Assembly: GCA_019787685.1 (NCBI GenBank)
Contig: JAHNUO010000007.1
Span: 868,001-932,000 of the forward strand
DNA length: 64,000 bases
DNA from: Chiua virens
Taxonomy: Eukaryota; Basidiomycota; Agaricomycetes; Boletales; Boletaceae
Reading direction: 5' to 3'
In this document: positions 7,023 through 64,000 of the stretch, piece after piece
Position numbering within the stretch: position 1 is the stretch's first letter
Layout of the letters: every line of letters begins with the position of its first letter
Translations under genes and position numbers: made by a program
Notes under the pieces: model-generated
Databases searched by the model: none
The model's input: only the letters and a program-made list of their open reading frames with translations
Told to the model about the DNA's origin: nothing

Positions 7023-7077
7023 TGGGCATGCCATTGTCCCGAATCTTGTACGAGTTGGTCATTCTCAATCATTGCAT

Positions 7078-7339: not shown

Positions 7340-7379
7340 ACCCCTTATCTGATTTCACTACATATGCGTAGATCTTTTC

Positions 7380-9290: not shown

Positions 9291-12237
9291 CTATTGTTTT
9301 GCCTTCGCGGCCATCTGAATCAAGCAGTAATGTTAGTGGTCAGAAACATTGAGAAGTCAAGACAAGACCAACCAAGTTGAGTGCCGAACCAGCCTTGAAC
9401 CATGCAATTTGACCTTCATTGAACGAGTGAGCAAGAGGAATTTCCTAAAACGAGGATGTTAGTATTGGATTGGTGCGACATTATTCCGAGTACTGACATC
9501 CTTGGTGCCATCGATGTGCTTGGCAACGAGGGTCAAATCCTTTCCAGGAGCGAACGATTCGAGACCGAGAATGTCCACCTTGTCTTGGGGTTGCATCTTC
9601 TCGTAGTCCTCAGGGTTGACGAACGTCAGAGCAAGCATTCCCTGCTTCTTCAAGTTGGTCTCATGGATACGAGCAAAGGAGCGGACAATGATAGCAAGAC
9701 CACCAAGGTAACGGGGCTCAAGGGCAGCATGTTCACGAGAGGAACCTTCACCGTAGTTGTGGTCACCAATGACGACCCACTTGATACCGTGGTCACGGTA
9801 GTAGGCAGCAGTTTGAGGGATACCGCCATATTCACCGGTGATCGAGTTCTTGACGTTGTTAGCCTCACCGTTCTCCGAGTTGATGGCACCAATCAACATG
9901 TTCTCTGGCATAAAGTGAGAACGAGATTCCAAACATGCGATATCCATGACTCACGGGAGATGTTTTGAAGGTGTCCACGGTACTTGAGCCAGGGTCCACC
10001 AGCAGAAATGTGGTCCGTTGCTATCAATCAACGATTAACTTCACCAATTTCAACTACGAAAATGGTTCACTTACTGCACTTGCCCTTGACTTTGATCAAA
10101 ACAGGGAGGTCAGTGGGGGTCTTGCCATCCCATGGCGTGAACGGCTGAAGGAGTTGAAGACGGTCACTGGTCGGGCTGACGGCGACGGAAACGGCAGCAC
10201 GGTCCTCAGGGGGAGGTTGGAAGGTGTCCTGTCCAGGGTCGTATCCACGGGGAGGAAGCTCATTGCCAGATGGGTCCGAGAATTTGAATGACTTGCCATC
10301 AGTGCCGGTGAGGGAGTCGGTGACGGGGTTGAAGGTGAGGTCGCCAGCAAAGGCCATGGCAGTCACGACATCGGGAGAGGCGACGAAGGCGTGGGTAGCG
10401 GGGTTGGCATCGTTGCGACCAGTGAAGTTACGGTTGTAAGATGTGATGACTTGGTGAAGTTAGACAGTCCTCAACCAATTAGAGGAAGCCACTCACTGGA
10501 GTTGACCTCTCCCTTTTTGACATCCTGTCTGTCCCATTGACCGATGCAAGGACCGCAGGCATTCGCAAGAACCAGACCGCCAGCCTTCTCGAAAGCACCC
10601 ATTTGACCGTCACGCTCGATGGTAGCACGAATTTGCTCGGAACCGGGGGTGATCGTGAACTTGCTCTTGACCTGAAGACCGTGCGCAGAAGCTTCATTAG
10701 CAATCGAAGCGGAGCGGGACATGTCTTCGTATGAAGAGTTGGTGCAAGAACCAATGAGAGCGACCTTGAGTTCCTGGGGCCAATTGTTCTTCTTGACTTC
10801 CTCGGCGAACTTGGAAAGAGGAGTAGCAAGATCGGGCGTGAATGGACCGTTGATGTGGGGCTCGAGCTCGGACAAGTTCTGTTCCGGAATGATTAGAACT
10901 AACGCTAGACACTGAAAAGGGACACGTACAATGTCGATGACCTGGTCGTACTCGGCACCCTCATCAGCCTGGAGGTTGTGTGCGAAGCGCTGAGCATATT
11001 GGGCGATCTCTGAACGTTTAGTAGCATTCAAGTAATCGACCATGCGGTTGTTGAAGGGGAAGAGCGAAGTAGTAGCACCAATCTCAGCACCCATGTTGCA
11101 AATGGTAGCCATGCCCGTGCAAGAAAGTGACTCGACGCCAGAACCACGGTACTCAACGATAGCACCAGTCCCACCCTTGACAGTGAGAATACCAGCAACC
11201 TTGAGAATGACATCTTGATGAAAACACCATGAACAACCAGAAGTAAAAATCAGTGAGATAAGCCTACCCTTGGGGGTCGTCCACCCGTCGATCTTGCCAG
11301 TTAAGTTGACACCGATAACCTTGGGGCACTTGAGCTCCCAAGGAATATCAGCCATCACGTCGACGGCGTCAGCACCACCAACACCACACGCAACCATTCC
11401 GAGACCACCCGCGTTAGGCGTGTGCGAGTCAGTACCAATCATAAGGCCACCAGGGAACGCGTAATTCTCCAAGATAATCTGGTGAATGATACCGGAACCG
11501 GGTTTCCAGAAGCCAAGTCCATACTGAAGTGAACTCCCAGATGAGACACTGTTACGCACAAACATAGGAAAAGGAACCAACTCACCTTGGCGGTAGCGGT
11601 GGCCAAGAAATCATACACCTCCTTGTTGATGCCGACTGCGCGTGCCAAGTCCTTGACACCACCCACTTGGGCCTCGATCAAGTGGTCACAATGGACGGTG
11701 GTAGGGACAGCAGCAGTGTCCATACCGGCCGACATGAATTGCAAGAGTGCCATCTATATTACATCAGCGGAGATCGGACCGTAACGCATGGAAATGAGCC
11801 TACTTGAGCGGTTGCATCCTGGCAAGCCACGCGCTAATACGATGATAACCGTTGAACAAACCAAGAGTGCTTTCGGAATGAGTGGTAAACGTACGTCGGG
11901 ACGAAGCTTGAGGTAAGAAACACCCCGAACAATATCCTGATTGTGAGGATCATCCAAATGGCCGTATACAATCTTCTCCGACAACGTCAATGGGCGACGC
12001 AATCTAACATGAATGGTCAGAAGGGCTGGTCCGAGGGAGGAAAGAAGTGTGGGATCACCTTTCGCGAACGATGGCGAGGTTGTCCTCGATACGCTGGTAG
12101 TTGATGTATGCGCCCTTTTCGAGGAGCGACATGGGAACTTTTGTGTCGCCAATGCGCGGGGCGACAGTAGCCATGCCAGCAGCAATGCGGCGCACGAAGC
12201 GGAGCGCATCACGAGCTCTTGGAGTGATAGAGAACAT
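9291..12237 (-). CDS. ACO1: Aconitate hydratase, mitochondrial (about 775 aa, about 12 exons)
   Basis: Aconitase interconverts citrate and isocitrate in the TCA cycle with a 4Fe-4S cluster. The ATG at 12237 opens an Arg-rich leader ([20 protein letters not shown]) suited to mitochondrial import. Spliced reading gives [32 protein letters not shown], the [20 protein letters not shown] core, [10 protein letters not shown] (first cluster cysteine), [14 protein letters not shown] (second and third cysteines), [10 protein letters not shown], and the swivel domain with [16 protein letters not shown]. It ends [17 protein letters not shown]. All exons join in frame with GT..AG introns of about 48-75 nt. 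One exon, 11804-11818, is only 15 nt (codes DATAQ). The whole gene looks intact, unlike several neighbours. A long open frame on the plus strand at 9456-9968 is only its shadow. Confidence 0.97.
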
Positions 12238-34410: not shown

Positions 34411-35423
34411 ATGAACACGCTCCGTCTCGCGTCTGCTCTGCGCAGGTCTCAACTCATAAGATCTTATTCGTCCTCCTCTAGAAAACCCGCACAGACCACT
34501 CAACCTGACCCTTCCTCATCGCCCTCAGCCAATGCCTCTACCCTCGGAACACCTCTTGCAGACATTCCTCAAGACGGCTTCCTCCCAGACCTCATGCAAT
34601 ATGACAAACTCCTCGACGAACACTCCGTCGCCGACTTCCCCCCCACAAACCGCGCCCCCTTTGCCAATCGCGTCATCGTCGCAACGACCCCTCCATGATC
34701 ACCGGCAACTTCTACGACACTTCTACCCAAGACCCCCACCTCGACGCGCTCGGGGGCGACTCCGAGGGCACCAACATCCGGGACGAAGCCGAGGAGCTGG
34801 ACGACGAAGAGACCATGGCCAACGACGTCCGCGACACGAGAAGCGACTCGCCCCTCACCCCCGCACAAGTCGCCAACCTGCACATGTACCCCCTACTCAT
34901 GCGTCGCGTCACCCAGCAAACCGGAAAGGGCAAAATCCACTCCATGTACTCCCTCGTCGTCGTCGGCGACGGGAACGGTCTCGTCGGGTACGGCGAGGGC
35001 AAGGACGAGGAGGCCGCGGTGGCCCGTGAAAAGGCCCTCGCCAAGGCGCTGAGGTCGATGGATTATGTCGAGCGCTTCGAGAGGCGGACGTTTTGGACGG
35101 ACATCGAGAGCAAGTTTGGGGGTACCAAGATTATTTTGCGACCGCGGCCTGTCGGGTTTGGGTTGAGGTGTAATCCGAATATACACCAGGTTCTCAAGGC
35201 GGCGGGTATCAAGGATGCCAGTGCAAAAGTTTGGGGGAGCAGAAATCCACTCATGGTCGTCAAAGGGCTGTTCAGGATGCTCCAGGCTGGCCATGCGCCA
35301 TTGGGTATGGGCGATGGCGTAGGTGGTGGGATGAGACGGTTAGACAAAGGGAGTGGTTTGAGAAATAAGAGTGCGATTGAAAGGGATAGAGGAAGGAAAA
35401 TGGTGAACATGAGGACGTTGTGA
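34411..35423 (+). CDS. MRPS5: Mitochondrial small-subunit ribosomal protein uS5m (MRPS5; about 337 aa; one frame break)
   Basis: This is the bacterial S5 homologue of the mitoribosome small subunit. The ATG at 34411 opens an Arg/Ser-rich mitochondrial leader (MNTLRLASALRRSQLIRSYS). The N-terminal extension carries DGFLPDLMQYDKLLDEHSVA and FANRVIVATTP. The S5 double-stranded RNA-binding part reads KIHSMYSLVVVGDGNGLVGY and GEGKDEEAAVAREKALAKAL. The S5 C-terminal part reads TKIILRPRPVGFGLRCNPNI and ASAKVWGSRNPLMVVKGLF. As written, frame 1 stops at TGA 34696 while the downstream frame has ATG at 34695. One more C in the run at 34688-34691 joins the two parts (ATTPS-MITGNFYD). No introns were seen. 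It cannot be two genes, because both halves are one ribosomal protein. Confidence 0.9.
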
Positions 35424-35832
35424 TCAGGCATGAGACTCTTTGGCATCCTACTACGTGTTTCACACTATGCTCGTAATAGCGGACTCATCGACATCTGCAT
35501 GCATGGGTGGGTCTCTATTGGACTTGGAATCAGATTCACAGCGACTGCAAGTCTGAGGTATGATAAGGAAGGCTTCGGAATCCCCTGAGCAGTATTGACG
35601 ATATAACACCACAAAGTTGGTGGTTGCCAAAAATTGTGTCGTCTTCCATTAGACCTCCGCTGCCATAGATTCCGTGAGCTTCTTCCCTGTCAACTCGGAT
35701 CCACTAGCTGGTCGCTGGACGGGCGTGATTTGGTGGGAGACCAACACCATTCAATGAAGCCCCATCTGTTACCCGTAACTATTGTTTGATCCGGCCGTTT
35801 GTGTGTTACCCCTTCGTAATGTTCACAATGAC
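35424..35832. other. Intergenic stretch, no gene seen
   Basis: About 400 bases follow the uS5m stop. There are no coding patterns on either strand, and it likely includes the uS5m terminator. Confidence 0.45.
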
Positions 35833-36783
35833 TTATATATCAGAAGCGACGTAATGGTAAGGGATACGGCCTGTCAAAATCTGACCACCATTGCAATGAA
35901 TCATAACCCAAAATAAAACAAGGCGATCGTGTCACTTACCTGCAATGTGATGCTCCCAAACGAATACACGTCGGTTTGCATAATCGTCCCACCATCAACG
36001 ACTACTTCAGGAGCCAGATATCGTAAGGCCCCGGGAGATGTCGAATCCAATTGATCTGTCAATAATTTGGATAACCCAAAGCCGGCAATGCGCTCCCATC
36101 AGCACAGACAAGTATATTTCCCTAATAAGAAGACAGAACCACATTACATACACCAGAAAGATCGCCGTGTATAACTCCTTCGGAATGCACTATCGCACAT
36201 CTCCCGTTAGATCAGCAAAGCTTGTAGGATAACAAACCTACACTGGTACTGCAAGCCACGGGTTATATCACCAACCTATAAATCGATATTCAACTGCCAT
36301 TGATCATGGATGCTGGTGAATACCTACCAGACCAAGTCTTTCTGAGACAGTGAGCTGGTCATTTACCTTGAGATATGGCGTCGATGCACCCTTTTCAATC
36401 CATGGAGACACTAGCAGGAATCTCGTGCGAAGGCCAGGGTCTCTAATGGTCCCAATCAATGGCAAAATGTTTGGGTGGTCCAGTTCCAACCGCACAGCGA
36501 TTTCTCTGCGAAATTGCTATCTGTGGTAAACAGGATAAGACGTACTTGAAGTGTGGGGGGACAGATACTCTCGTCCAAGTCCTTGTCGCGCAAGTAGTAT
36601 CTGCATACCTTGATCGCGACCTGGTGGATTCCGTTTAGTTTCCCATATTGAGGGTACACAACGACGCACCTCCATCGATCCACTTTCCATATCCATATCT
36701 AAACGACCTTTGAAGATGTCCAGAATCGAAGGCAGCTGAACGGGAAAGGCGCTCCAGATGTCTCGAAGCGGATGGTCAGACAT
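35833..36783 (-). pseudogene. Protein kinase pseudogene (HGDLSG-type), truncated after subdomain IX
   Basis: This is the fullest kinase of its family in the window. The ATG at 36783 gives MSDHPLRDIWSAFPVQLPSI, then YGKLNGIHQVAIKVCRYYLR (glycine strand and VAIK lysine). After an intron come REIAVRLELDHPNILPLIGT, IRDPGLRTRFLLVSPWIEKG and SERLGLV. GDITRGLQYQ and the catalytic loop GVIHGDLSG follow, then NILVCADGS. A frame break of one base (or four) and a change of DFG to GFG (IAGFGLSKLLTDQLD) come next. The APE motif (LRYLAPEVVVDGG) and TDVYSFGSITLQ follow. The sequence then stops soon after ILTGRIPYHY at 35833, so subdomains X-XI are missing. The frame break, loss of the metal-binding Asp and the truncation all argue for a dead gene. 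Confidence 0.75.
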
Positions 36784-39941: not shown

Positions 39942-42216
39942 CTATGAAGCACCAGCTGTGGCAAATAGTTTACCTGGATAGAACCAGCGCCGCCCTGTGC
40001 GTTGTCGTGCAGCGTGACGACACTGCTCTGGCATTCGACCTTTCACTGTGGCAACAGCCTGCGCCGGCGCAACCGTGAGAATCGCAGAGGTGTCCGAAGC
40101 AGGTGGAGAAGGCGAGCGACGCCAGGATGACGTAGGACTGGAAGTGAAAAGGGAATGAAACGGAAATGCATCTGTAAACGAGCCCCTCCGGCCACGATGC
40201 TCGTCCTCGCTCGGTGGCGTCCGTGGCGGTGACGAGGTGCGGGGAAAGGAAAACCGCCAAAGGGATGAGGACCACCGTTTTTCCTCACTGCCGTTTGAAG
40301 ATCGAGGGATCGGGATAGGGACGGGAGAGCTGGGTCGTGGAAGCGACCCTGAAATGCCGGTCGGGACATGTGGCGAGGGGAGTGGAGGGTGCGTGGGCAA
40401 AGTACCCATTTGAGCGTGTGCTTCCTGCCGACACGTGTTCATGACTACAGCGGGCACATAGGGATTCATAGCCTTAGTGAAGACGGGATCGCGCCGCCAG
40501 ATGGCCAAGTGGGCAGGAGAGGTGTCTTCCAGCGACTTCTTCGAGGTAACGTCTAAGTCTAGACCCACCACGCTTTCCACTGAGGATGACATGGTGGAGG
40601 GGTATGACGACGAGTAATCGCTATCGGAGTAGTCCCACATCGGGTTGGTGTGATGGCTATCGGGCGTGGCATAGACACCGAGGTCCATACTTGATGGCAT
40701 AGCAGAGGATGTCCAAGGGAGGGAGATCTTGGAGATCGAGTCGGACGAGGGAAGATAGAAGCAGGAAGAGAATGGGGTGGCGCTTTCGACGGCGGTGTGC
40801 ATGGAAGACAAGGTGGTGTGCGTAGTGGTGCTACCCGTGAAGAATATGCGACGACCACAATCAGTATTGATTTTGAGAGGCTTCGAGGGAGTTGGCCGGT
40901 TGCGCAACACGCTAACGCCCTCCGGAGTGGGGGGGATGGAAGGGATGGATCCTGATGCGACGGGGGATAGTGGAGAGTACGTGGAAGGTGGTGTGCGAGG
41001 AGCTTCGTAAATTTTGAGGGGCTCGAGCACCGCGGACGATGGAGAGCGTATCGATGACTCAATAGCCCAAGTCGCATTGCACGAAGAATACTCCTCGTCC
41101 CACATCGGGTCCCGAATGGAATGCCTTGTGTACTCCATTTCCGAATCGCTGTCCTTGCTCCACTTGGAATGAAGTTCTTCAAGTTGCTCGGCAGGCTCGG
41201 CGGGAGTAGACGAATCCGAGTCACTTTCGATGTCGACATCGATCTCCCAGGCACACCGTGCCATGCTTCCCTCGAAGATGACACCCTCTGCGTAGAAGTG
41301 ATCCACCTGCTGAATGGCAGCCCTGACCTCCGACAAAGTAATGCGACGGCGCCAATCTACCTCGAGCATGCGGCAAAGGATGTTGTTTACTTCGGCAGAG
41401 ATAGGAAGGACGGTGGGAAGGAAGTTAAAGGGGTCCCGAAGGTACGCCTGGAAAGTAGGGTCGGATGAAGATGCCGACTTCCAAGGATTGCGACCGGTGG
41501 CGAGGTTCAAAAGTATAATGGCCAACGACCAGATATCGTTGAATAGGGGGGAATAAGACCCTGTCGGTGCGAACTCGCCACCCTGACACTCTAAATCCGA
41601 CATGTCAATTATGCGAAGGAACACGATCGAGGTCATACGCACCTGGACTCATGTGGTAAACGCTACCAGTGCGGAATTCCTCACTAAACCTATCTGTGGT
41701 GGCGAGGCCGAAATCGGTGATAGCAACTCGGAGTCCGCCGTCGAAGCACAGAACGTTCTCTGGCTTGAGGTCCCGATGATATATCCCTAGCGAATGGCAA
41801 TACTCGACGGCATCAAGAAGCTGAAGGAATATGTGCTTAATTAAGTGATCTTGTCCGAGGTAGCGGCAATGATGCAAAATTTGAGAGAAGAGATCACCAT
41901 CGGAAGCGTAGTCCATGACGAAGTAGGTGTAGTTGTGCTCCTCCACAACCCGGTGGAGAGTGACGACGTTTGGGTGGGCTGACGCAAGGCGGTGTAGGGC
42001 TATTTCCCGCATGTGTAATTGACGCTGGCGGGAACCGCTGTGAACCTGTGAACTGATGAGGCACTTGACTGCGTAATTGTGCGCAAGGGGGTCCACGGCG
42101 CGATAGACGACACCATAGCCTCCTACGCCGAGGCCCTGGACGAGTTCGAGATTGTCGTTGTCGATGAGGGTACCCAGGGCTGGGGGAGGGGGGGAATTCG
42201 ACTGCTTGAGCGGCAT
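39942..42216 (-). CDS. RAN1/PAT1-like serine/threonine kinase (about 740 aa)
   Basis: Fission-yeast Ran1/Pat1 blocks meiosis in rich medium, and related fungal kinases (Ksp1, Sks1) act in nutrient signalling. The ATG at 42216 is preferred because upstream codons in frame lack ATG. The kinase domain starts ELVQGLGVGGYGVVYRAVDP (glycine loop), with YAVKCL (ATP lysine), PNVVTLHRVVEEHNYTYFVM, GIYHRDLKPENVL (catalytic loop HRDLKPEN), ITDFGLATTDRFSEEFRTGS, VYHMSPECQGG (split by the single intron of about 52 nt), DIWSLAIILLNLATGRNPWK and the closing LEVDWRRRITLSEVRAAI. All catalytic residues are present. The remaining 430 residues are Ser/Pro/Thr-rich and probably disordered, with a repeated patch (MWDEEYSS, MWDYSDSDYSSSY). 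The stop is at 39942. Confidence 0.92.
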
Positions 42217-43057
42217 CCTGGGACGACGCTGCAACAACGAGAGGGAGGGCGGAGACCTAAGAGGCCGAGGGGGCGTCCGAAGGCCAGGAAAGTGGTGAAG
42301 AGCAGTGGGAAGTAAGGGCGAAGAGCGACTTAAACACGCTGGCAATTTAAGTGAGTTACGCCCCGTTGCAGCGTGGCTAGCATGAGGCAGCCTGACCCCC
42401 AGTTGTTAGCGGCTGTTCGTGATAGACGAGTGGAGGGAAGGATTCCTGCAGGAAGGTTCGATAATGACATCGAGGCAGACGACCTTTTCTATCGCCACCG
42501 AACCACAGGAGATCAGTCATCATTTGAATATCATTCTAATCGAAGGAGTACCCCTAAAAAGGCAGGAGTCGGGAGGAGTGGAATAAAGCGCGGACATCGG
42601 ACCCAATTGGGAATGCAACGATCAGGATTTGCCAAGCGGTGTGACAATGGAGATTTGTAGAGCTTTGAGTCGACACGAAATCATATGGAATTACGCCCGA
42701 TCGCTGACGGAGTAACTACTAAGGTGTAGTCACTAAGCAGAGTGGACCCTGGGCACCTGCTCGACCAGACAGCTGTAGATCTCAGCACCTTGCACGGGTT
42801 GTAGACTCACCGAACCGAACCAACCTGGAGTGTGCATGTTACACAGCAACCGGGTCTACATAACGAGTTCACGTGACGAGCACGCGTCGCGACGCGATTG
42901 AGGCGGGTCGGAGCGTCGGGGTCTAAAAATGGCAAGTGTGAGTTTAAATGCTAAGCGAGCGTGAATGCGGTTCAGTTTCTCTTCCTCAACGTGTTGCACA
43001 GCGCCCACGCGTATCCCTACCTCGGCTCCTCACATCTACTCCACCCTTTCTATTTCA
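42217..43057. other. Divergent intergenic region between kinase and KEN-box gene
   Basis: The 841 bases between two start codons facing away from each other hold the promoters of both genes. A plus-strand open frame (from ATG 42382) is short and unlike any family. The stretch before 43058 is rich in pyrimidines, as in many fungal promoters. Confidence 0.5.
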
Positions 43058-44591: not shown

Positions 44592-47224
44592 ATGGGTTTG
44601 GTCCGCAAACTAACCCAAACCCTTCAGGTCCCTCACGATCTAAGCCTCACTTTAGCCCAGCAATTAATCACCGTGCGTGCGCTCTGTTGATGCTCCAACC
44701 CAGTTTTCAAACTTTCCATCTCGGCTGTCACTAGAATGAGGACCTCCTGCCTGTAGTCCCCGAGAACAGGACCTGGCGAGGATACAACTATGTTGCATTG
44801 TGCGTCTAGGCGATCCTTTTTTTTCACCCTTTTGAATGACACACATATGATCAATATTCGATCCTCATGACTGCGTTGCCTTGGGCATCAAACGCACACA
44901 GCTGGGTGGCGGACATGTTTAATATCAACACGTGAGTCGCTCGTGTAATTCCAGGAAACCACATAACATCTCTTCGAGTTGGATGATCGTCTCTTCTATG
45001 ATTCAACTCGGCATGTCATGGTGGCAAGCTTGGGTTTGTGTATGGGTGGGGTACGGTATCGTGACGCCGTTTTTGGTGTTGAATGCACGGCCCGGGGCAA
45101 TGTTCCACGTCACCTTTCCTGTCGTCGTGCGCACGAGTTTCGGAGTTTTTGGAAGTTTGTGGTGTGTCTTCAATCGAGGCGCAATGGCCTGGTATGGACA
45201 CCTGACAGCTCCATTCCTCGTGTTCGTCGTGTTAAAAAAGGAAATTACAGTATATGGTATGGGGTCCAAGCAAGCATTGGAGGGACGTGCGTGTTGGTGA
45301 TGCTACGGGCTATGTGGCCTAGTGCGAACGACATTCGTGAGTGGATCTCTTCTGTAGGAAGACAATCTTGTTTATGAACACGATTGGAACCCAGCTAATT
45401 CACTTCCTGCTTGGTCCGGAACAAATACGCGGGACTTTATGTGCTTCTTCCTGTTCTGGCTCCTATCGCTGCCTTTGATGTGGTTTCCTGTGCACAAGAT
45501 GTTCGTAAGAGAAGGCTCTTGGTTCCAGATCCTTAGACTCATACATTTGGAAAGTCGACACTTCTTTGTGGTGAAGATGGTGGTGGCACCTACCGCGGCG
45601 ATTGTATTCCTCATATGGTGTATCGTCAAGGCACATGGTCTGGGTCCGATAGTCCACCAACCTGCATCTATCCATGGATCAAATCTCGCCTGGGCAATGG
45701 TCGTGAGCCTCATGTCATGCATCAGCAACTCGGTGACGCTTCTCACGTCAGCACGCCTCATTCCGTACTCCGTGCCCATCTCACTTGGAACCAAACTAGG
45801 AACGCACCGGACTTTGCGTCTAGGGCAAGGACTCCCGCTGCGGCACTTTGGCCACAGCTTTTTGCATTCCCCCTCGCGTCTTGTATCGTGTCTTTGATCG
45901 GTATCCTGGTCAGTTCATCTTCCCAGGCTATATATGGAGAAGCTATCTGGTCACCCATCGATTTATTGGGCCGATTCCTAGATGACAATCCATCTTCCGC
46001 GACGAGATTTGGGGTGCGTGCAACACTTGCTCCATTCAGCATTCCTGATGTGGCTCACCACTCCCTAGGTATGGTTCATCTCCGTCTCGTTTGTCATTGC
46101 ACAGGTGAGCGACTGACTTGCTTTCTGGTAATGTACAAGACGTACTATCATTACTCACGGAATAAACCATGCCACGCCAGATGGGGTATGTTTGTTTCAT
46201 GTTCCCGAGCGGTAAACGGCGATTCATGCTTGGTTCTTCTTTCCGTTCGGTTATGCGGCAATGTACGATTCGGGGATGCGGTTGCGCAGAACGAACATTT
46301 CCGCAAATTCGGTTTCGGCTGGATGCGACCTGACCGCGTTGTGTCCTCGTTTCATTGTGGGTGTCGTTGTCAGCTGCGGCATCTGAAGATCATCTTATGC
46401 AGTCGGATACGATTGCATTAATGATTGACACCGCTTGCATGTAGAACATCCGACGAGGTGGATATATCGCAGCGATCGTTGGCTTATGCATGTGCCCATG
46501 GAACCTGCTCAAGAGCAGCAACAACTTCACGTCTTACCTGTCTGCATATTCTGTCTTCCTGAGCTCCATCGCTGGAGTTATGGTGAGTCGACCTCCACAG
46601 CCATTGATCCATGCAATTCGAGCTCACTGTGAAATGGACGGGGTTTGCTTCGATGCTTGCGACGCAATTAGGTCACGGAATATTACTTTATCCGCAAAGG
46701 TCACTATAATGTAGTCGACTTGTATCAGACGGGAAAAGGCACCTGGTATTGGTATTCTTACGGGTTCAATTTCCGGTGAGCGGCTTTAACTTGGGTTCTC
46801 CTGACTGGGACATCCGGACGACTTACGACACTTTCTGTAGTGCCTACACCGCCTACATCGCTGGAATTTTGATCAACGTTGTCGGGTTTGCGGGCGCCAG
46901 TGAGTTCCATATTTACTTTCTTTCTCAGCCTGTCCGTTGGCGATGGTCCGCACGGGCCGGCTGAGAAGATGCCAGTAGGCACACACTGACGCGATTGGCG
47001 ACGGTTGCCGTGGTTCTGCGTGTCACGCAGCTGGTCGTACGGTACCGATTGCCGCCACACGGATATACGAACTAGCGTTCTTTACGGGATTTGGGGTATC
47101 GTCCGTCGTGTATTATGTGCTGAATTGGTTCTACCATGTGGAGGGTGCGGCTGCAGTGTTTGAAGAGATCGATGTGTCGGGGTACGAAACGGCGAAGGGG
47201 ATGGACCTGCTGGCACGTCGGTGA
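44592..47224 (+). CDS. NCS1-family nucleobase/allantoin permease (uracil-permease type, about 520 aa)
   Basis: FUR4/DAL4/FUI1-type permeases carry uracil, allantoin, uridine or related compounds with protons across the plasma membrane. The ATG at 44592 reads [11 protein letters not shown]. Spliced exons then give the family hallmarks [233 protein letters not shown] and [18 protein letters not shown]. It ends KGMDLLARR. There are about 14 exons, and all junctions are in frame, so the gene looks intact. One intron (46105-46289, 185 nt) is far longer than the rest and is also found in the decayed copies at 56.6 and 59.5 kb. Confidence 0.93.
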
Positions 47225-52267: not shown

Positions 52268-53650
52268 CTTCACTCTTTGTCGAGCGAATATTGTCTGCTT
52301 TCAAATTTCATGGCCGGAGTGCCTTCTTTCTTGTTTTATTAGACTAGGTTCAACTTATTGTTATTATTCATTCTCTGGCACATATTTTAGAGTAATCCTT
52401 TTCATGGATTCACCGAGTTATTAGGAATATGTAGAGTATGTATCACTTAGATCATCCATGCATACGTAATGTAATTCTCTATGGGTAAAGAGCAAGATTC
52501 GGACTGAATTCAATTGTGCTACATTGATAATTGACTATCTTCCATCACTACTTATGTTTATACCAATTGTGGCGTTCTCTCGAGACTCTGAATCCGAACT
52601 CCCTTTCGGAAGGACCCACATGCTCCGAAATTTCCCCGACTTCCACAACATTGTACATTGACGATCCAGAAGGGGGACGAGTGGGCATCACCTTGAATCA
52701 GTTGTGTTCAGACAACCCGGTCTACCCTCTACGTAGCGGTCTCAACGAGCGAGCAACAAAATAGGTATACCGTATTAACTCACGACAGGTAGGACTCGGA
52801 AGCTCGGATCAATGAGTAAATTAGCTACCAAGCTCTTTGGGGCTGATGAATCGCACGCAAACCATGATTCATGCCGAAGGAGTCATGAACTTGGATCCAA
52901 AACCATGTCCCCGAGTCACGGTAGTCCGAGTGTTCTCCTACATGTGCCCGGACTCTTTTACTTGGCAATGGTCTTGGGCGGAACTGGCTGATTTCTCAAA
53001 GTTGCTTGAATGTGTTGGCTCTGCGCATGTGGTTCAAGAGTCTTCGCCGATCTCTCGCAGTGAAGCATTTCGAGCGCTCCTCAAGGGTCCAGTACTCAGT
53101 TTTTCAAAACAATACAAATACCGTTTTCAAGTTTGCCGAACCGGGTGTTTCAAATTCACCACTGACGAGTTGACCAAGGCATTGCGCAGGCCGCGCACCT
53201 AAACCATATCGACTCTCTGGCGACGGGCCCACGAAAATCAAAAGGCCCGGAGCTCACATCCTCGAGAAATACCCAGTAAAATAATTGGGACATAAGGGCT
53301 ATCCGGACACCGTGACGACGCGGCCCGCGTCGACGAAAATAGTGCGGGCGCTGCGGTCCAATTCACTTATCCGACGAACTTGGCATAATTTAACCGCACA
53401 CAGAGAGGTAAGGACCAGTATAATGTATTGAACTGTTTGGACACGTTCAAATCCCTCCATTGCAGGAATGTGCAAATCAGAAAAGTTAGCATGACCCATT
53501 GTCTACCATGCATATAAGTTAGGCCCGAAAGTAGCTCAGAAATCCCTGCTTTAAGTATACTTGAAGTTGTTCGGTATCCCGTAAGCCCTGTCATTTGAAT
53601 GGTCCATTTACCTTATGATGATTGAAGGGCCGGCGTTAAATTAACACTAG
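52268..53650. other. Intergenic stretch left of the inverted duplication
   Basis: The left part (52268-52520) is AT-rich 3' flank. Open frames at 52531-53202 (plus) and 53299-53594 (minus) show no family pattern. No gene is supported. Confidence 0.4.
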
Positions 53651-53727
53651 AAGACTTTGATAAGAATGACCCGAAATAATTCGGATGGGACCGAGTCGCA
53701 GCTTTGCTCCACCCGGTCCAACATAGC

Positions 53728-56055
53728 ATGTCTCAGCCATACTCTGTCAATTTCAGCCTAAAGGTTGGTATCAAGTTAGACGATACTGATACGATTGGTG
53801 CGCTCGCTGATATCATTGAATAAGGAGCTTTCTGTGGAATCCGCAAATTGTGCCAAGGGTGTCGAGCCTCTTGACAAAGAAGAATGTGATAGGGTTTTGA
53901 GGAAAGTAGATTGGCATCTTCTGCCTTTCGTCTCGTTGTTGTACCTCCTGTGTTTCTTGTGAGTTATCCCAGTGGTTACTTGCTTTCCGTTGTTCTTGAC
54001 GGACTAGCACTGTCCTTCCAAAAGAGACCGCTCTAGCATCGGTGGGTGGTGTCATTGAATCAATTGACAGACCGTATCATTATGCTACTTTTCAGCCAAC
54101 GCCAAAATCGCGGGAATGGCGACCGATTTGAACCTCATAGGACTCAGATACAACACTGCCGCGGCGATCTTTTTTGTGCGGAGCCGTTACGACTTATAAC
54201 GAATCTCGACTAACAATCATCTAAGATCCCGTACTGCCTTGGACAAATCCCATCGTAAGTCAAAACGACTGAATAATCGATATCGGATAAGCCCTTAAAC
54301 CGTCAAACGTTCGCAGAAATATCACCCTGAAGCTCTTTCGGCCATCCAGATGGAGTATGGTGATCTCCATTTCGACGGACATTGCTGAACCACGATTCCT
54401 TACAGTACCTGTAATTATGGTTGCGTGGGGTCTCGTCATGACCTTGATGTGTCTCGTGAGTACATATCAAGGACTCCTTGTGTAGGTGTTCTGTTCGTGA
54501 AATGGTAGACCCCAATCACTGACGTTGGTCTCGACTGTGTCCAGTGCCAGGGTTTTTCTTGGTCTAGCAGAATCTGGGTTATTCCCTGGCGTGACATATT
54601 ACCTCTCGCGGTGGTATCCGCGTGCCGAGCAGGCCAAGCGCATTGCGATATTCTGCTCTGCTGCGACCGTGGCAGGCGCATTTGGTGGTCTTCTGGCGTA
54701 AGTCTTCTTACACTCAGTATGGCATGCCACTCATGCGTCCATAGTTATGCTATTGAAAAAATGGAGGGGTAAGCAGCACCTTGGAGATTTTTTGTCATCT
54801 CCGAGCCGACGATCTTGGGATAGGATTGGTGGTCTCCATGGCTGGCAGTGGATTGTAAGTCATTACACAAAATGGACATAGAATATGCTCAACCTTGAGC
54901 GCTAGTTCTGCCTAGAGGGTCTCAGTAAGGCTCCAGTCATCGCCAAATTACAGTTTAATGTGAGTTTTTGCAGCGACGGTTGTTATCGCATTCGCGGGTT
55001 TCTTTATCATGCATGATGTTCGTGCATTTACCCATCATTATTTCCTTTATCATTACTTAAATTGGTTCAGTACCCAGAAACAGCATCATTTTTGACAGAG
55101 ACCGAGAGACGCTGTCTTGTTCAGATGATGAAGGCTGATTCGCAGCATCTTGCAACACATTTCCATTTCCGTTACGTTCTGCAGGCTCTCAAGGACTACA
55201 AAATCTACCTTCAATTTGGCATACTCATCGGGTAGGTGCATAATATATCCAGAGAGAACAGGGCCCTTTTGATGTTTTGTATTATGGTGGATCAGTGCGG
55301 TCATCCCCGCGTACACAACTACGCTGTTTACGACAACCATCATCAACGACTTGGGTTTCTCTGCTGCTAATGCACAATTGCTTTCCGTGCCCATATTCGT
55401 TTTCGCTTGCGTATGCACCATTATAATCGGTACCTATTCCGACAAGTATCGTCGTCGTGGGCCCTTTGCGCTCGTGGGACAACTTACCGCTCTCGTGGGC
55501 TACATCGTCCTGTACACCCAAACGCAGGCCTGGTGCATCGTACGTTGGTGCCGTGGTCGCCGCCATGGGCGTTTTCCCACAAGCGCCAGTCGTACTCGCG
55601 TGGGTCAGCTCGAACGCTGGAGGCGACATGAAACGCGGGACTGCCCTCGGGGCAGCCATTGGGTTTGCAAATCTAGGCGGGTGCGTCACCAGTAACATGA
55701 CATAACATGACTCACATCTGACTTGACTTGTGTATCGGCCTACAATTGTAGGATATGCTCGTCGTTTATCTACTTTGACCCGCCCCGCTTCCATATCGGC
55801 CATGGCACGATGATGGGGTGGTTGAGTCTCTCGTGAGTCTTTGCTTTGTCACTGTCGAGGCTACGTCGGTCACGTTGCTGACGTTACGCTGGGAATAGGA
55901 TACTGTTGAACTGCTTTTCCATGTGGAATTACAACCGGCTCAACAAACAGAAGGAGAAAGAATGCCTGGAGCGCGGTATCCAGGATTCAGACGACCAGAA
56001 GGAGGAATTTAAGGATGATGGGGATGAGAGTCCTCTCTTCAGATATGCGATCTAG
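53728..56055 (+). CDS. MFS transporter, DAL5/TNA1 (allantoate/nicotinate) type, copy 1 (about 486 aa; one frame break)
   Basis: Members of this anion:cation symporter family take up nicotinate, allantoate, ureidosuccinate or similar acids. The ATG at 53728 gives MSQPYSVNFSLK. After an intron come KGVEPLDKEECDRVLRKVDW and HLLPFVSLLYLLCFLDRSSI (helix 1), NAKIAGMATDLNLIGLRYN, IPYCLGQIPSNITLKLFRPS, MVAWGLVMTLMCLV, ARVFLGLAESGLFPGVTYYL and SRWYPRAEQAKRIAIF (the helix 4-5 signature), GGLHGWQWIFCLEGL, YPETASFLTETERRCLVQMM, IINDLGFSAANAQLLSVPIF, YSDKYRRRGPFALVGQLTAL, and FIYFDPPRFHIGHGTMMGWL. It ends GDESPLFRYAI. There are about 15 short exons. One extra base near 55526 (YTQT-RPGASYV) breaks the frame. 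Copy 2 is intact there, which proves the expected reading. Confidence 0.85.
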
Positions 56056-56299
56056 TTCCCAGCATAGCCGGTGTGAAGATCCTCACGCTCTTACCTCGGA
56101 TGTTTCGTGATCAAGACCTTTCAGTACCCTTTGATATGTTTCATGAGCAATCGTATCGCGTCGTTGTGTTCGTTCAGGATGCCCAGTGAGCTTGTCAGAT
56201 CAGAACGTAGTGTAATCCCCTATTGGAATATGACTCCATTCCGAGCTTCGAAGGAACAAACCACTATCCAATGCACCATGTCAGAAGCTTATAACTGGA

Positions 56300-57375
56300 T
56301 TGCAAAAAAGGCACGTACCCAACTTCATGGCGAAGGCAAGAACACCCGCGGTGACGTTTTGGCATGTAAGCGTGGCCGCCATGCGTCTGGCAAGTATCCT
56401 TGTTGGTTTGTCTTTGCGGGCGATCAGTGGCCTCCCGTAGATTTACTGTGTGCCAGAGTTCTTGCATTGGCATACTTCTTGCGCGACACAGTTCGGCATG
56501 GTTCACTGCTCATGTTCTATCCAATGTGGCTCATAAGCCGGACTTGGTACGGTATATCTCCGCGTGCTTCATCACTGCGTAGGCCACTGTAACAGAAGAA
56601 AGCGTTCTCTGTTAATGTGAAAGACACGTATCACTGGCACGATGACTCACGGAATAAAACTTGCATGCGATGCCAGAAGAAGATTCAAAACGTTTCCTTA
56701 TGTCACCGAACATGAACGGCGAATATACGCGTCGCTTCTTCTTGCCACCAATGCGCCATCTTCAGGACAATTGGCATCTAATTCGGTCTCGGCTGGGTGC
56801 GGCTCGAACGCTGGCACGCCGTTTCCCCGTTTTTCGTAGATGGCTTCTTTGAATGCGGGCTTTAGAATTTAGAATCCTGACCATGTGTCGCGTGCATAGA
56901 TTAGTCGACATGCTGGATACATGATACTAGCCATCGTTGGCCTGTGCATCTGTTAACGGAACTTGCTCAAGAGAGTGGTAACTTGAATGTAGTACTTCTT
57001 ACCTGTCCACGTGTTCCGGATTTATAAGCTCGATCGCAGTCAGTACTAGTGTCCACTGGCATGCCATTAATCCAGGAACATAGACTGCTCGCGTGCGATA
57101 TTACTCGGTCCGCGTGGGGTTATATTACAATGGGGTTGCTGGAAGGGGACTCGGAGACTGGGACTGATTTACGTGCGGGGTGAATTTCTGAAGACTCTCA
57201 TGGGTCGTCTCTGCCAGCGTGAATGAGTCGCCATGTTCGACACTTCGACACTACCTTGCCCTTGGGCTTGAGCGACAGGTCCGAGGGAGAAGGCACGATA
57301 CCGTGAACGATTGATTACGGCTGCTCAGATACAGTTTCTCTCGTGTATCGTATGATATGCGCTGAATCGGTTGTC
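56300..57375 (+). pseudogene. Decayed NCS1 permease copy (left arm)
   Basis: The order follows the intact gene at 44.6-47.2 kb. At 56425 CAGTGGCCTCCCGTAGATTT matches the codons for IWSPIDL. At 56640 ACTCACGGAATAAA matches the long intron. At 56780 TCTCGGCTGGGTGCGG matches SVSAGC. At 56937 GCCATCGTTGGCCTGTGCAT matches AIVGLCM, followed by TTGCTCAAGAG for LLKS. At 57100 GATATTACTCGGTCCGCG matches EYYFIRK. At 57350 GCGCTGAATCGGTTG matches LNWF. Stops and small gaps are scattered all through, so this copy is dead. The 5' half of the permease is not clear here, though 56055-56300 is the shared 3' flank of the MFS gene. Confidence 0.75.
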
Positions 57376-57682
57376 CCCTACTATCATAGTAGGCGCTCTG
57401 TGTGAATCTGCACGCTCACTGTGTACTAGGAGCCCCCGACGCGCTGTGTGGAAGGAACAAAAAAATCTATTACTGGACATCCAGGGCCTTCGAGTTGTGA
57501 AGAAAGTGTCATCATTGCGTCCCACTTGAGAGTTAAGATATGGACAGAGTCCGAGTCGCGTGTATTCCATCAGAATACATATTCTAGCTACACTTGTATA
57601 CAGCCAGATTTTTAATTTGGCAGCGGAACGCCCCGACTCCGAGTTGAGGCGTCGTGATCCGGTCGACTTATCACCTAGTAGA

Positions 57683-58303
57683 CTAGGTCAAGTGGACGTA
57701 GATGGTGCTCGACACACACAGAACCTGTCAAATTCGCTGATGAGCAGGACCATCACGACCACAAGCCAAATGCCCTACCTCGCCGGGGTAGAGGTTGGTG
57801 CAAATCTGGTTCACGTTGGGGTTGTTGGTGATGAGCGTGTTCACTGAGATGTTGTATGCACTTGCGATGCCAGCGCACGTGTTTCCAGACTGCGAGACGT
57901 AGGTGGTCGAGCAATCTTGGCCAGTGATACCCAAGCAGATGACCTAGGCGGATGTACTGAGTCTTGGACACAACACGGAGAAGGGGTGGCTTACCTCGCC
58001 GACGTAGAGGTTGTCGCAAGAGGCGTCGATGATGCCCGTATTCACGGCTGCGAGTTGGTAGCTGTGGATGATATTATGAACCGTTAATGCAGGACTTAGG
58101 TGAGACTCACGTTGAGACGTTGTAGTTGGCGGAGATGCTGTTACAAGTATCACCGGCGGCGACTGTTACGTTGCGATCGCAACCGGCGGGGAGCGTCTGG
58201 GCTACAGTACGGTCAGACACGCGTCAGCACGCGATGGTGGGACAAGCGACGCACCATAGAGAGCAGTTGCAGCAAGCGCAAGGGTAGTGAAGAGACCAAG
58301 CAT
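57683..58303 (-). CDS. Secreted LysM protein, two LysM domains (about 137 aa)
   Basis: Secreted fungal LysM proteins bind chitin; many shield hyphae or dampen chitin-triggered host responses. The ATG at 58303 starts a signal peptide (MLGLFTTLALAATALYA). LysM 1 reads CDRNVTVAAGDTCNSISANY and NTGIIDASCDNLYVGEVICL. LysM 2 reads CSTTYVSQSGNTCAGIASAY and LITNNPNVNQICTNLYPGEV. The end, LCVSSTIYVHLT, appears only after removal of a last intron (GTAGGGCATTT..TTTGACAG); without it the frame would run to a false stop near 57728. There are five exons, all in frame, with TAG at 57683. No catalytic domain is present, so it is a pure LysM protein. It lies alone in the spacer of the inverted duplication. 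Role as effector is inferred from the family. Confidence 0.9.
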
Positions 58304-59039
58304 GTCGAACAGGTATTGTAGAACGGGTGTCAGACAAAGAACGGTGCGGAGACAAGTGCTGTTCCAATCTGCCCAAAACGCAGTGGATTTTATACGTTTT
58401 TCGTTTGAACACGGCTTTCATTTTGTTGGGCGATGAGGTTGGCACCGGCGCACCAAGTTGGACGAGTGTAGCGGTACCCACGACGTGCACAGAAGGAGAA
58501 ACAGCATGGGAAGTCAGAACAGGAACTTGCGGCAGGGTACTCAAAAACGAAGGCAATCAGAGGGCGGTGATCCGCGGTGACTTCCGATGCGGCGGGTCAC
58601 TTACCCTCCCGAGTATCAGGCGGGTTAGTGGGACTGTGCCTGGCGAGAAAAGGTACGACGTTAGCGTGTGCAGCACCACCATTAAAACAAGGACTGGGCC
58701 GTTTTCTGGTGGATATCTTTGACCGTCCTGTGAGTGGTCGTTCGAATACAGACCTGATGGACGAGTCAGTAGAAATCGGTGATGCGTGTTCGGGGTTATT
58801 TTGGCTCGATCAATGTCAGGAATGTATTTCTGGAGTGAACTCGAAGAATGTATCAAACGAACCAACATCTGTGAGACCTTGTGAGCAGTTGTCAATGAGT
58901 CTCACGAGTTCCATAAGCAGTGACTACCGTTTTCGCACAACACTGAATAATACCCCTCGACGGCGCGGAATCAGTCGGTCTTCTCCACTGGATCCGCCGG
59001 ACCTAGCGTAATCGGCAAATTTGATCGACTATGCAAATT
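58304..59039. other. Spacer right of the LysM gene, likely its promoter
   Basis: About 740 bases between the LysM start and the right arm. Open frames on both strands lack family patterns. The part next to 58303 must contain the LysM promoter. No copy of this stretch was seen in the left half of the spacer. Confidence 0.4.
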
Positions 59040-60130
59040 TTCAGGCGTTTGGATGTCCCACAATAGTCGTGCCTGGTCGGAATTTATCCCGTGCGTATGC
59101 CCCAAATACAACTTGAAGTAATTCCGTGACCCAACCGCACCGCGAGCAGTTCTCGTCCATGTCGCCGCCCGTGCATAGATTCTGGGATATTGATGACACG
59201 GAGAATGGAGTCGTCACGATGGAGATACGGACCATACGATAAGACTTCGAACTGCTTCTGCTATGCACTGAGCAAGTTCTATGGGCCTAGAAGCTAGACC
59301 CACCCGTCGAATACTCCACAAACAAAAAATGACCGTGCTTCAAACATTCATGCACATGTCTCTCGGCGTTTACGGACCCACATTAATGAAATGAGGGAAC
59401 AGCAGGTCAAGCCACACCTAGTTCGCAACAAGAGACCTACCACATTATGGCGAAGAGAAGAAGCAATCCATGAATCGCCGTTCATGCATCATGTTCGGTA
59501 AAATGAAGGCATAGTATGTAACCCATCTGACATCGCCCTTCATGAATCGTACTGATACATTTCTTGCACGTCAAGAAAGAACACTGCTCGTCTCTATGGA
59601 GACGAACCGCATCAGCACGGTGGACTCATCAGAATCTGGCAAGTGCTGGGCTAATTTGGTCGTGGGAGCGGCACCCTGTCAAGGGCAGCACGGCGAACAT
59701 ACCGCAGCGTGCGGCCCCGCCCTCGACACGAAGTCGCGTGCGTTCCAATTTTCGTTCAGTGAACAGATGTATACGATACTGGCGTAATGAGCGTCAGGGT
59801 TGCCAATGCACGACATGAAGTTGATGAACACCGCTTAACCAGCTGGACCCGTGGACGTGCAAATTGGTGCACGATTTCTTGTCGTGAGCAATAGCAATCT
59901 CGAACGGAAACGGCTAGACATTGGCTTACGAATATTTTATGCTCTAAGAGAACCAGATCAACAGCAGTGATAGGCGCCAGAACAAGAGAAGCGGATCAAG
60001 TCCCCTGGTAAGTTGTTCTGGGGACACCGGGAGTGTTCCAACATCCTGGGAAGCTGCGGCTCTTGGCATGTTTAAGCTATTCACTTTTTTATTGATAACC
60101 AGGACGTCGTGGCTTCGGGGTTGTCATCAT
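59040..60130 (-). pseudogene. Decayed NCS1 permease copy (right arm)
   Basis: Read on the minus strand. Near 59990 GTTCTGGCGCCTATCACTGC matches the intact gene at 45453 (GTTCTGGCTCCTATCGCTGC, codons FWLLSLP). Near 59870 GTGCACCAATTTGCACGTCC matches IVHQPAS. Near 59815 TTCATGTCGTGCATTGGCAA matches LMSCISN. Near 59735 AACGCACGCGACTTCG matches NAPDFAS. At 59490-59560 the long-intron words recur (GAACGGCGATTCATG). Near 59285 AGAACTTGCTCAGTGC matches WNLLKS. Near 59125 GGGTCACGGAATTACTTC matches VTEYYF. The frame is destroyed by stops and small indels. This copy keeps both the 5' and 3' parts of the permease, so together with the left copy it shows the whole gene was duplicated. Confidence 0.75.
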
Positions 60131-60386
60131 GTCAGGTTTTAGGTGAGACTTACCGAGTGGTATAACTTTATCATCGTCGAATCTTGTCCTCCACTGCCAA
60201 GCTTCGAAGATGACAAGTTACAGACTATTCGTCCTGACTGATTGACACTGAGCGAACACACAATGTAGCGACATACAGCATACATGACCGTGAAATTACA
60301 GGGGTAAAAAAAAAGAAAGGGAGCTTGAGCGCGAAAGCCTTGGAATACGCGTATAAGAATCTTCACACCCGGCCTGATGTTGAGAA

Positions 60387-62697
60387 CTAAATTGCATATC
60401 GGAACAAAGGACTCTCATCCCCATCGTTCCTGAAGTCCTCTTTCAGTCCCTTTGAATCGGCCATCCCGCGTTCCAGGCACTCTTTCTCCTTCTGCTTAGT
60501 TGAGCCTGTTGTAATTCCACATGGAAACGCAGTTCATCAGCATCCTGTTTCCGGAGTGACGTCAGAGACGCGACCGTCGTGTGACAAAGGCAAGACGCAC
60601 GAGAGACTCAGCCACCCCATCATCGTACCGTGACCGACATGGAATCGAGGTGGGTCAAAGTAGATAAACGATGAACATAACCTGTGTGGCACAGATTCAT
60701 AATGATACCTGTCATGCCATGTTCTGGTAACGCACCCGCCTAGATTCGCAAGCCCAATGGCCGCCCCGAGGGCTACCCCGCGTTTCACCTCGCCTCCAGC
60801 GTTTGAGCTGGTCCATGCGAGTATGACTGGCGTCGATGGGAAAACGCCCATAGCGGCGAGCACGGCGCCAACGTACGATGGACCGGGGCGCGTTTGGGTA
60901 TACAAGATGATGTAGCCCACTAGAGCGGTGAATTGTCCCACGAGTGCAAACGGCCCACGACGATGATACTTGTCCGAATAGATACCGATGAGAATGGTGA
61001 ATATGCAACCGGCAACAAACGGAGGGACGGAGAGTAGCTGTGCATTGGCCGCAGAAAAACCAAGGTCATTGATGATGGTCGGCATAAACAGCGTGATTGC
61101 GTATGTGGGGACGACCAAACTGATTCATTATGATATAAAACATCAGGAATGGCTGCACTGGACACACGTTGTGGCGCATCATACACCTACCCGATGAGTA
61201 TACCGAATTGAAGGTAGGTTTTGTAATCCTTGAGAGCCTGCAGAACGAAACGGAAGTCAAAATGTGTCGCAAGATGCTGCGAGTCGGTCTTCATCAACTG
61301 AACGAGACAGCGTCTCTCAGTCTCTGTTAAAAATGACGCAGTTTCTGGATACTGAACAAGATTGAATGATGATAAATGAAATAATGATGGGTAAATGCAC
61401 GAACATCTTGCATAATAAAGAAACCCGTAAATGCGACGCCAACCGTCGCTGTAATGATCAACATCAAACCATTGTCGCTTGGTGATAACGGGAGCCTTAC
61501 TAAGACCTTCCAGGCAGAACTGGTCGTCCTAGGCTCAATATGTTTCACGTATATTATCTGAGGAATGACTCACGATCCATTGCCAGCCATGGAGGCCACC
61601 GATCCTACCACAAGAACGTAAGCTTGGAGACGACAAAAACGTTTCTAAAAATGTACTACCTACCCTTCCATGTTTTCAATGGCATAACTATTGGTGCGTG
61701 AGTATAATGTCAGTGCTGCAAGGGATATAATAAAGGGTGCTCACGCCAGAAGACCACCGAATGCGCCTGCTATCGTCGCAGCGGAGAAGAATATTGCAAT
61801 GCGCTTGGCCCGTTCACCCCGCGGATACCACAGCGAGAGGTAATATGTCACGCCGGGAAACAACCCAGATTCTGCTAGACCAAGGAAAACTCGGGCGCTG
61901 GACACAATCAAAAGCAGCGTCAGTGATTGGGGAGTACTATTTCACGAGCAGGCACTTACACGAGGAGTCCCTGATATGTCTTCACGAGACACATTAGGGT
62001 CATGACAATACCCCACGCAACCATGATCGTAGGTACTACAGGGATCGTGGTTCAGTAATGTCCGTTGAGATGGTGATCACCGTACTCCATCTGGATGGCC
62101 GGAAGAGCTTCAAGATGATATTCCTGGTTCAAATGCTTATCTAATGATCGTTCAGTAACTTGTTCGACTCACGATGGAATTTGTCCTAGACAGTATGGGA
62201 TCTTGAGAGTTGTTAGTCGAGAGTTGTTGCAGGTCAACCTGGTTACGTACAAAGAAGACCGCAGCAGGCAGTATTGTATCTGAGTCCTACGAGGTTCAAA
62301 TCGGTCGCCATGCCCGCGACTTTGGCGTTGGCTAAGAATTGGCGTAAACTGATATGGTCCTCTACCAAAATAAATATCACTACTCACCGATATTAGAGCG
62401 GTCCCTTAGTAATGGAAGGACATTCGTCCGTCAAGAACAGACTAGAAGTAACTTGACCATGACTCACAGGAAACACAGAAGGTACAACAACGAAACGAGG
62501 GGCAGGAGACGCCAATCTACTTTCCTTAGGACCCTATCACATTCTCCTTTATCAAGATACTCGATATCCTTGGGACTATCTACATGTTCAATGGAAAGCT
62601 CCTTAATCAGTCATATCAGCGAACAGGTCAAGACGTTAACAATGTCACATCTAGAATCGATACGAACCTTGAGATCGCCAGAGAGTGATTGAGGCAT
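60387..62697 (-). CDS. MFS transporter, DAL5/TNA1 type, copy 2 (one frame break near the C terminus)
   Basis: This is the paralogue of the gene at 53.7 kb with the same exon pattern. The ATG at 62697 gives MPQSLSGDLKELSIEHVDSP, then CDRVLRKVDWRLLPLVSLLY, DRSNIANAKVAGMATDLN, ARVFLGLAESGLFPGVTYYL, LWYPRGERAKRIAIF, GGLHGWQWIFCLEGL, YPETASFLTETERRCLVQLM, VVPTYAITLFMPTIINDLGF, YSDKYHRRGPFALVGQFTAL, RPGPSYVGAVLAAMGVFPST, VKRGVALGAAIGLANLGG, DPPRFHVGHGTMMGWLSLS. One extra base at about 60497 turns NRLNKQKEK into a stop (NRLN-TAA), but the same C-terminal tail (DESPLFRYAI) goes on in the next frame to 60387. Loss of about 40 tail residues would not remove a helix, so even the short form could work. 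Confidence 0.85.
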
Positions 62698-62775
62698 GTT
62701 ATGGTCAAGGTGGAAGCAGACTGGAGCTGCGAATTCCAGCTAAGACGACCGTCGGTTTATGTATCCATATCATCA

Positions 62776-64000
62776 ACTTGAATGCTTTAGGACACTCTCA
62801 CCAAACTCTTCTGGTATTCATTTACCGTCAGCTTCGGTAGTTTATTGAGACCCTCACTCGTCGGAGCTTATGGGATCACCGCGGACACATTTCTGGAGAG
62901 ATCAATGTGCAATGCCGCATCCGTCAGAATGGCAGTTACGCGGGCACGGGATTTGATCGCTTACTGCTATAAGGCTAGTGTTAATGTTGGATAGCTTCAG
63001 TGAGATCAGGTGTTACAGCACCTGCCTTAGCGTATTATGTACGACTAGACTAGTTCGGTTGCTACATAATAAAATCGCTTGACCAAAAAAATACCGAAGT
63101 GCATTAGTCCGGCCCCTCGGCGAATACTGAGCACGGCGTATCCATGCGGGGACAGTTAGGTAACGCGCTTCGAAGGAGTAAATTCTCAACGGACATATTG
63201 ATAAGCACAACCTTGTTGGTCGAGAATCGAGACGACTCCACAACGGCATTTTGGACGTCGCGCCGGTCGCGGGACTCCTCGCGTGATACACAGATCATTC
63301 AGAAGGGCATCGCAGTCTATTTTGAAAAATAGGACTCCATTGGCACGAATTCCATTGCTGCGGTCAGTTTTTAGATATCTGCGACGGGGTGTGATGTCAT
63401 ATATCACAGCCAGATAGCATCATACACCGCCATACATTGATGCGAGGTGCTCGCAGTTCCCACCTTAATGGGCTACCTCCAATCCAGATTCCAGCCAAAA
63501 ATACGCATGCTGAGAAGATCCGGCGGCCATTATGTAGAGATGGGGTGTGATTCAACAACGTTCCCATCAGAACAGCCAAGGTACGTCAATGCGCAACGTA
63601 ATACGCTTTCCAGAGAGAAACAAGCATGTCGATGGTGTGGAAATTTGAGTAAGAGTTGGATGAGCTCGGGTGTGTCACAGAAATGTCACGTTGACATAAT
63701 GACGACGCCGAAAACTTCATGAGATTACTCAGACCATCGACTCAGTTCTTAGACTAGGTAATGTCCGTTTCACTGTTAGTATCCGTAGTATGCACCCGTG
63801 TTTTTCTCTTTCCTTTTCGTCATTCATGGTCCCTGTCCACCCATTCAAGTCCAGCAGATACCACGGCCTAAAAGATAACAGATTGAATGTGCAAGGCCGA
63901 TGATCGAGTTTCTGGAACCTTGGGAAGTCGCCCGGTTCCCGGGTTAATTCACTGGCAATTTGCAGCTGATGCTCGTTGGAAGAGGGTCATCGGATCTTGT
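62776..64000. other. Right flank of the duplication, no gene seen
   Basis: 1.2 kb to the window end. Open frames at 63013-63722 on both strands have no family pattern, and the frames shadow each other. I see no repeat, RNA gene or exon. It may hold the start of a gene beyond the window. Confidence 0.35.

Follow-up and report, generated by a model that had tools for sequence, protein, structure and literature searches.

How two transporter arms came to face each other across a gene for a small LysM protein in Chiua virens, and whether this layout endangers the gene between them, is the question raised by the stretch of DNA analyzed here (64,000 nucleotides, termed the window; C7:868001-932000). 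The window lies on contig C7 (2,250,022 bp), and the assembly searched comprises 48.3 Mb in 136 contigs. A first-pass annotation of the window had described an inverted duplication of an MFS gene and an NCS1 permease gene with a LysM effector gene in the loop, and had taken the facing arms for a long palindrome that might promote hairpins, gene conversion, or amplification and thereby make the effector locus variable. A literature search by species name returned no paper with the Chiua virens genome in its title; the accessible part of PMC12135008 mentions it where numbers of best hits are given.

The arms themselves proved to be as described. The order upstream block, MFS gene, 3′ flank, and NCS1 sequence is found on the plus strand at about 53.63 to 57.19 kb and on the minus strand at about 62.83 to 59.12 kb (Table 1). 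Comparison of the window with itself by blastn gave a single long inverted pair (53804-56083 versus 62622-60356; 78.3% identity over 2325 columns), and a permissive setting widened the match of the MFS arms to 53722-56122 versus 62703-60315 (77.4%, 2449 columns, E 0). Across the arms with M1 and M2, 481 differences were counted in 2270 ungapped positions (21%). The 54-bp upstream block is 72% alike in the two arms. A block just 3′ of the MFS stop is also common to both (73 columns, 68%) and is weak taken alone, its 26.8 bits equaling the best shuffled control; it is absent from a comparison of the 800-bp flanks of five MFS copies, and the longer permissive blastn alignment spans it. The spacer, previously put at about 1.66 kb, measures a similar 1.7 to 1.9 kb depending on how the weak NCS1 end pieces are counted, but the well-aligned part of the arms ends near the MFS stop codons, which lie 4.3 kb apart.

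Table 1. Coordinates of the arms, the LysM gene, the reference NCS1 gene, and the neighboring MFS copies (window numbering, continued past its end for M3 to M5)
Feature	Position	Strand	Remarks
NCS1 permease gene (PF02133), near-complete	44598..47191	+	Yardstick for the relics; outside the arms
Upstream block, arm 1	53629..53682	+	72% to 62832-62780 over 54 bp
M1, MFS transporter gene, arm 1	53728..56055	+	16 exons in the model; exon 14 carries the single net +1 frameshift
Arm 1 NCS1 relic, 5′-truncated	56303..57188	+	Further weak piece at 57341-57377
Two-LysM small protein gene, intact	57683..58303	-	137 aa, 5 exons; JVU11DRAFT_5868, P0241
Arm 2 NCS1 relic, 5′-truncated	59116..60021	-	DNA evidence only
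M2, MFS transporter gene, arm 2	60387..62697	-	16 exons in the model; exons 4 and 16 each carry a net +1 frameshift
Upstream block, arm 2	62780..62832	-	Pairs with 53629-53682
M3, MFS copy beyond window end	66696-64376	-	
M4, MFS copy beyond window end	70827-68470	-	
M5, MFS copy beyond window end	~74464-72102	-	

Within the arms, the MFS genes are the better preserved part. A 16-exon model was read on the intact copy M4 in an alignment of five copies and then transferred to M1 through M5; its translation in M4 is 100% identical to the listed Chiua virens protein P0001. The sharing of introns noted earlier extends to all five copies, which have 15 intron positions in common, with GT at 73 of 75 donors and AG at 75 of 75 acceptors. 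As to the description of M1 and M2 as nearly intact, M1 carries one net +1 frameshift in the shared model and M2 carries two. The annotated protein P0041 (470 aa) fits M1 via a different splice choice around the exon 14 shift. M3 has three net +1 shifts in the shared model (exons 14, 15, and 16), and M5 is open across its aligned part; its first exon, clipped by the alignment window, is spanned by the listed protein P0079, which fits this copy. Within the M4 codon columns, none of the five copies has a stop before the end, and among the best 120 of 1998 hits, none of the proteins could be assigned to M2 or M3. All six frameshifts in M1 to M3 being net +1, base-level assembly errors are possible, and this is the one observation that speaks for the arms as a product of mis-assembly. 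Against it, each of the copies M1, M4, and M5 has a listed protein of its own, and arms that differ at 21% of their ungapped positions make a false inverted copy of a single locus very unlikely, so that we give this explanation almost no credence. As to function, PF07690 (MFS_1) matches M4 with 123.1 bits (cut-off, 33.4), and the only solved relatives by sequence are the D-galactonate transporter structures PDB 6e9n and 6e9o (E 2e-9 and 5.6e-9, respectively), the likeness consisting of this sequence relation and of PF07690 in the fungal gene. We take the D-galactonate transporters to be members of the anion:cation symporter branch of the MFS and the genes described here to be probable kin of the fungal Dal5/Tna1 permeases; judged by these relatives, the substrate may be a small organic anion.

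The arm pair does not stand alone: three further MFS copies follow past the window end, giving five copies within 53.7 to 74.5 kb in the orientation + - - - -. In a tree of 48 rows (M1 to M5 and 43 relatives chosen from 120 listed), the five copies form one clade (100/98) with none of the 43 relatives inside, and M1 groups with M2 (100/99). The clade excludes two further Chiua rows, P0053 and P0059. Copy-number growth has thus occurred in the MFS family. M1 and M2 are the youngest pair of the five, their intron Jukes-Cantor (JC) distance being 0.44 versus 0.83 to 1.13 in the other nine pairs. For this pair, dN is 0.10 and dS 0.52 by NG86 (0.11 and 0.39 by YN00), and since dN is far below dS, purifying selection has acted on the MFS coding parts during most of their history. 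MFS transporter paralogues that form local arrays evolve by birth and death, and the copies described here resemble known arrays of this kind in being neighbors, in forming one clade, in being under purifying selection, and in being partly broken; they differ from those arrays in the inversion of one member and in the truncated NCS1 fragment found behind two.

We therefore consider an old local inverted duplication inside a birth-and-death MFS array, with the LysM gene as a bystander, to be the best explanation of the layout, and we hold it with considerable confidence. A segment consisting of an MFS gene and an already 5′-truncated piece of an NCS1 permease gene would have been duplicated a single time, in reverse orientation, on the far side of a LysM gene already in place, and the same MFS family would have given rise to the three further copies M3 to M5 on the minus strand beside M2. 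That M2 through M5 all stand head to tail leaves some room for a different route, in which a tandem duplication came first and the M1 segment was inverted afterward; the resulting map would be the same. This route requires a second event, and we regard it as a possible but rather unlikely course; inversion breakpoints were examined only via the 800-bp flanks of the five copies.

The relics bear on whether the MFS gene and the NCS1 fragment were copied as one unit. The NCS1 gene at 44.6 to 47.2 kb served as reference: PF02133 scores above its cut-off, and relatives match over the full length. The closest relative listed for it shows 88% identity, and none of the listed matches is an identical protein, so that the gene is perhaps unannotated or annotated outside the searched size range. 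Two more NCS1 loci in opposite orientation were seen at C17:44424-45673 and 86464-87832, with stops inside some of the matched frames, some of which may be introns. At the DNA level, the arm 1 relic matches the reference gene at 56303-56363 (E 9e-5), 56428-57101 (E 1.2e-14), and 57341-57377 (E 0.036), collinear with gene positions 45792-45852, 45948-46635, and, weakly, 47099-47135. The arm 2 relic matches in two main blocks, 60021-59925 and 59875-59692 (E 6e-13), and in three weaker collinear pieces (E 0.002, 0.036, and 0.036) reaching 59116; the corresponding gene positions are 45416-45509 and 45649-45853, followed by the three weaker pieces up to 46688. A control stretch at 47.3 to 53.6 kb gave E 0.14 against the same gene. 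When 40 of 120 listed NCS1 proteins were used as tblastn queries, up to 26 of the 40 matched the arm 1 relic (best E 2.4e-5; reversed control, 0) and none matched the arm 2 relic. PF02133 gave no match in the arms among 18 candidates scored, and neither relic has a full-length open frame. Both NCS1 copies are hence truncated, frame-broken fragments, that of arm 2 by DNA alone, in agreement with the decay noted previously.

In arm 1, NCS1 sequence begins 248 bp after the MFS stop, with a first matched position 1194 bp inside the full gene; the corresponding values for arm 2 are 366 bp and 818 bp. As the NCS1 5′ part is missing and there is too little room for it before the relics, the piece was presumably truncated from its start before or at the duplication. 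Joint copying of the MFS gene and this fragment is suggested by NCS1 matches 3′ of M1 and of M2 that have no counterpart behind the other copies: the M3 flank yields none at E ≤ 1, and the best values for the M4 and M5 flanks are E 0.73 and E 0.53. Against it, either relic resembles the reference gene more closely than it resembles the other relic: in a three-way comparison over 585 columns, they agree at 54.7% of positions with one another and at 61.7% and 62.1% with the gene, and they are also less alike than the introns of M1 and M2 (69%). Their direct match is weak (at best 150 columns at 61% and 31.1 bits, compared with 26.8 bits for the highest of 100 shuffled controls). This is not the simplest prediction of a joint copy, although the comparison is blurred by decay and indels and by the constraint under which the reference gene evolves. 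That the relics are less alike than the M1 and M2 introns would also fit relics that are older local copies near the LysM gene, beside which the MFS genes arrived later and separately. A hint that NCS1-LysM linkage predates the MFS copies here comes from contig sizes in Tylopilus felleus, where one contig size, 2,260,286 bp, is given both for the best NCS1 relative (P0121) and for a LysM relative (P0248), and the three listed MFS relatives (P0008, P0018, and P0060) are on contigs of 2,791,302 and 2,410,575 bp. On the other side, both relics begin shortly past the 3′ end of their MFS gene and are oriented alike with respect to it, both are devoid of the NCS1 5′ part, and the other three MFS flanks have no NCS1 match; separate arrival accordingly appears unlikely to us, if worth keeping in mind, and we tentatively infer that the two were copied as one unit.

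The loop contains, as first described, one intact gene for a protein with two LysM stretches, and its model is 100% identical to the listed protein P0241. The LysM profile scores 65.5 bits (cut-off, 20.9) on the 109 of 137 aa scanned, and the N terminus is hydrophobic by eye. The predicted product would thus fit the description of a fungal LysM effector as small, with LysM domains and little else, and with its 137 aa and two LysM stretches it resembles known small basidiomycete proteins with two LysM domains, some of which are listed under CBM50. It is 75 to 85% identical to its seven best-listed other relatives. Of 112 listed relatives, the top ones come from genera that we assign to the Boletales; others come from Serpula, Phanerochaete, Trametes, and Ganoderma, presumably wood-rotters or saprotrophs, and for this reason the name effector is only a label for the protein. 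In a tree of 35 rows (the window's protein and 34 of 111 other listed relatives), the Chiua row falls within a 22-row clade (99/91) without a resolved place in it, under a bootstrap that had yet to converge. Boletus edulis, B. edulis BED1, and Imleria badia each have two LysM relatives with a single contig size in common, which, from contig sizes only, suggests that linked LysM copies may exist in other boletes. No close second copy was found in the assembly, the best other place (C12:758653-758928) being 43% identical; the LysM domain model matches three further places, on C6, C27, and C22. A search of the assembly with the 4.3 kb of DNA that separates the MFS genes gave one match, which speaks against a loop made of dispersed repeats, although rarity is not proven by a search that skips very common words.

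Gene conversion between the arms finds no support in the alignment. Identity is 1225/1455 (84.2%) in exons and 564/815 (69.2%) in introns of M1 and M2, a comparison that the annotation had itself recommended; the longest identical run is 30 bp, a length reached in 607 of 2000 shuffles, and identical positions are not clustered. The 2270 ungapped positions contain no long identical tract, and the spread of the differences and the divergence of the introns lend recent conversion no support; old conversion is possible.

An unstable palindrome would have near-identical arms and a short spacer, whereas the arms here are 77 to 78% alike, with stops 4.3 kb apart. Inverted Alu repeats in yeast are comparable in having two inverted homologous arms and a spacer. 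In wild-type yeast, according to the accessible part of PMC10164571, rearrangement rates of such repeats with a 12-bp spacer are about 58- and 1087-fold lower at 86% and 75% homology, respectively, and spacers of 1.5 or 20 kb cost inverted repeats 31- or 47-fold; both the divergence and the kilobase spacing seen here would accordingly lower the rate strongly. The same part reports that inverted repeats 30 kb apart still exceed the spontaneous rate in wild-type yeast and that, where long stretches of DNA are single-stranded, repeats that lie far apart and diverge by up to 25% can still interact. These reports, the truly inverted arms, and the local expansion of the MFS family are what can be said for a variable LysM effector locus. 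In view of the scattered differences, the spacing, the single match of the loop, and a LysM protein without a close second place in the assembly, we consider this very improbable: instability is conceivable under special conditions, but nothing here points that way. The first-pass annotation is thus partly supported, right and careful in its observation, with its instability reading not upheld.

A further conceivable consequence, which we regard as extremely improbable, is that read-through from M1 to M2 across the LysM gene would produce a fold-back RNA feeding small-RNA silencing of the whole MFS array. The MFS arms of such an RNA would share identical runs of at most 30 bp; when M1 is compared with other copies, the runs reach 32 bp. 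If such an RNA did form, the LysM gene would be embedded in a transcript that feeds silencing.

Elsewhere in the window, two stretches at 6702-7650 and 35646-36514 are similar (66 to 75% DNA identity), and their frames resemble, by eye, pieces of a protein kinase domain; they are apparently decayed kinase-like fragments. A scan of 10 open frames, of which 4 had no family, revealed ordinary neighbors at 34605-35420 (ribosomal protein S5 domains), 10474-11610 (aconitase), and 39945-42405 (protein kinase). In the assembly, paired matches with near-equal positions or equal scores (C54:42363-44209 and C55:42501-44253; C6:180136-180267 and C27:1803-1934) suggest that allelic or duplicated contigs have been retained.

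The locus illustrates that facing arms, however striking in one window, can turn out to be the margin of a local gene array of ordinary type, and it gives a modest example of how a transporter family turns over in a bolete, intact members standing next to broken ones. It also carries a warning that effector instability should not be read from layout alone.
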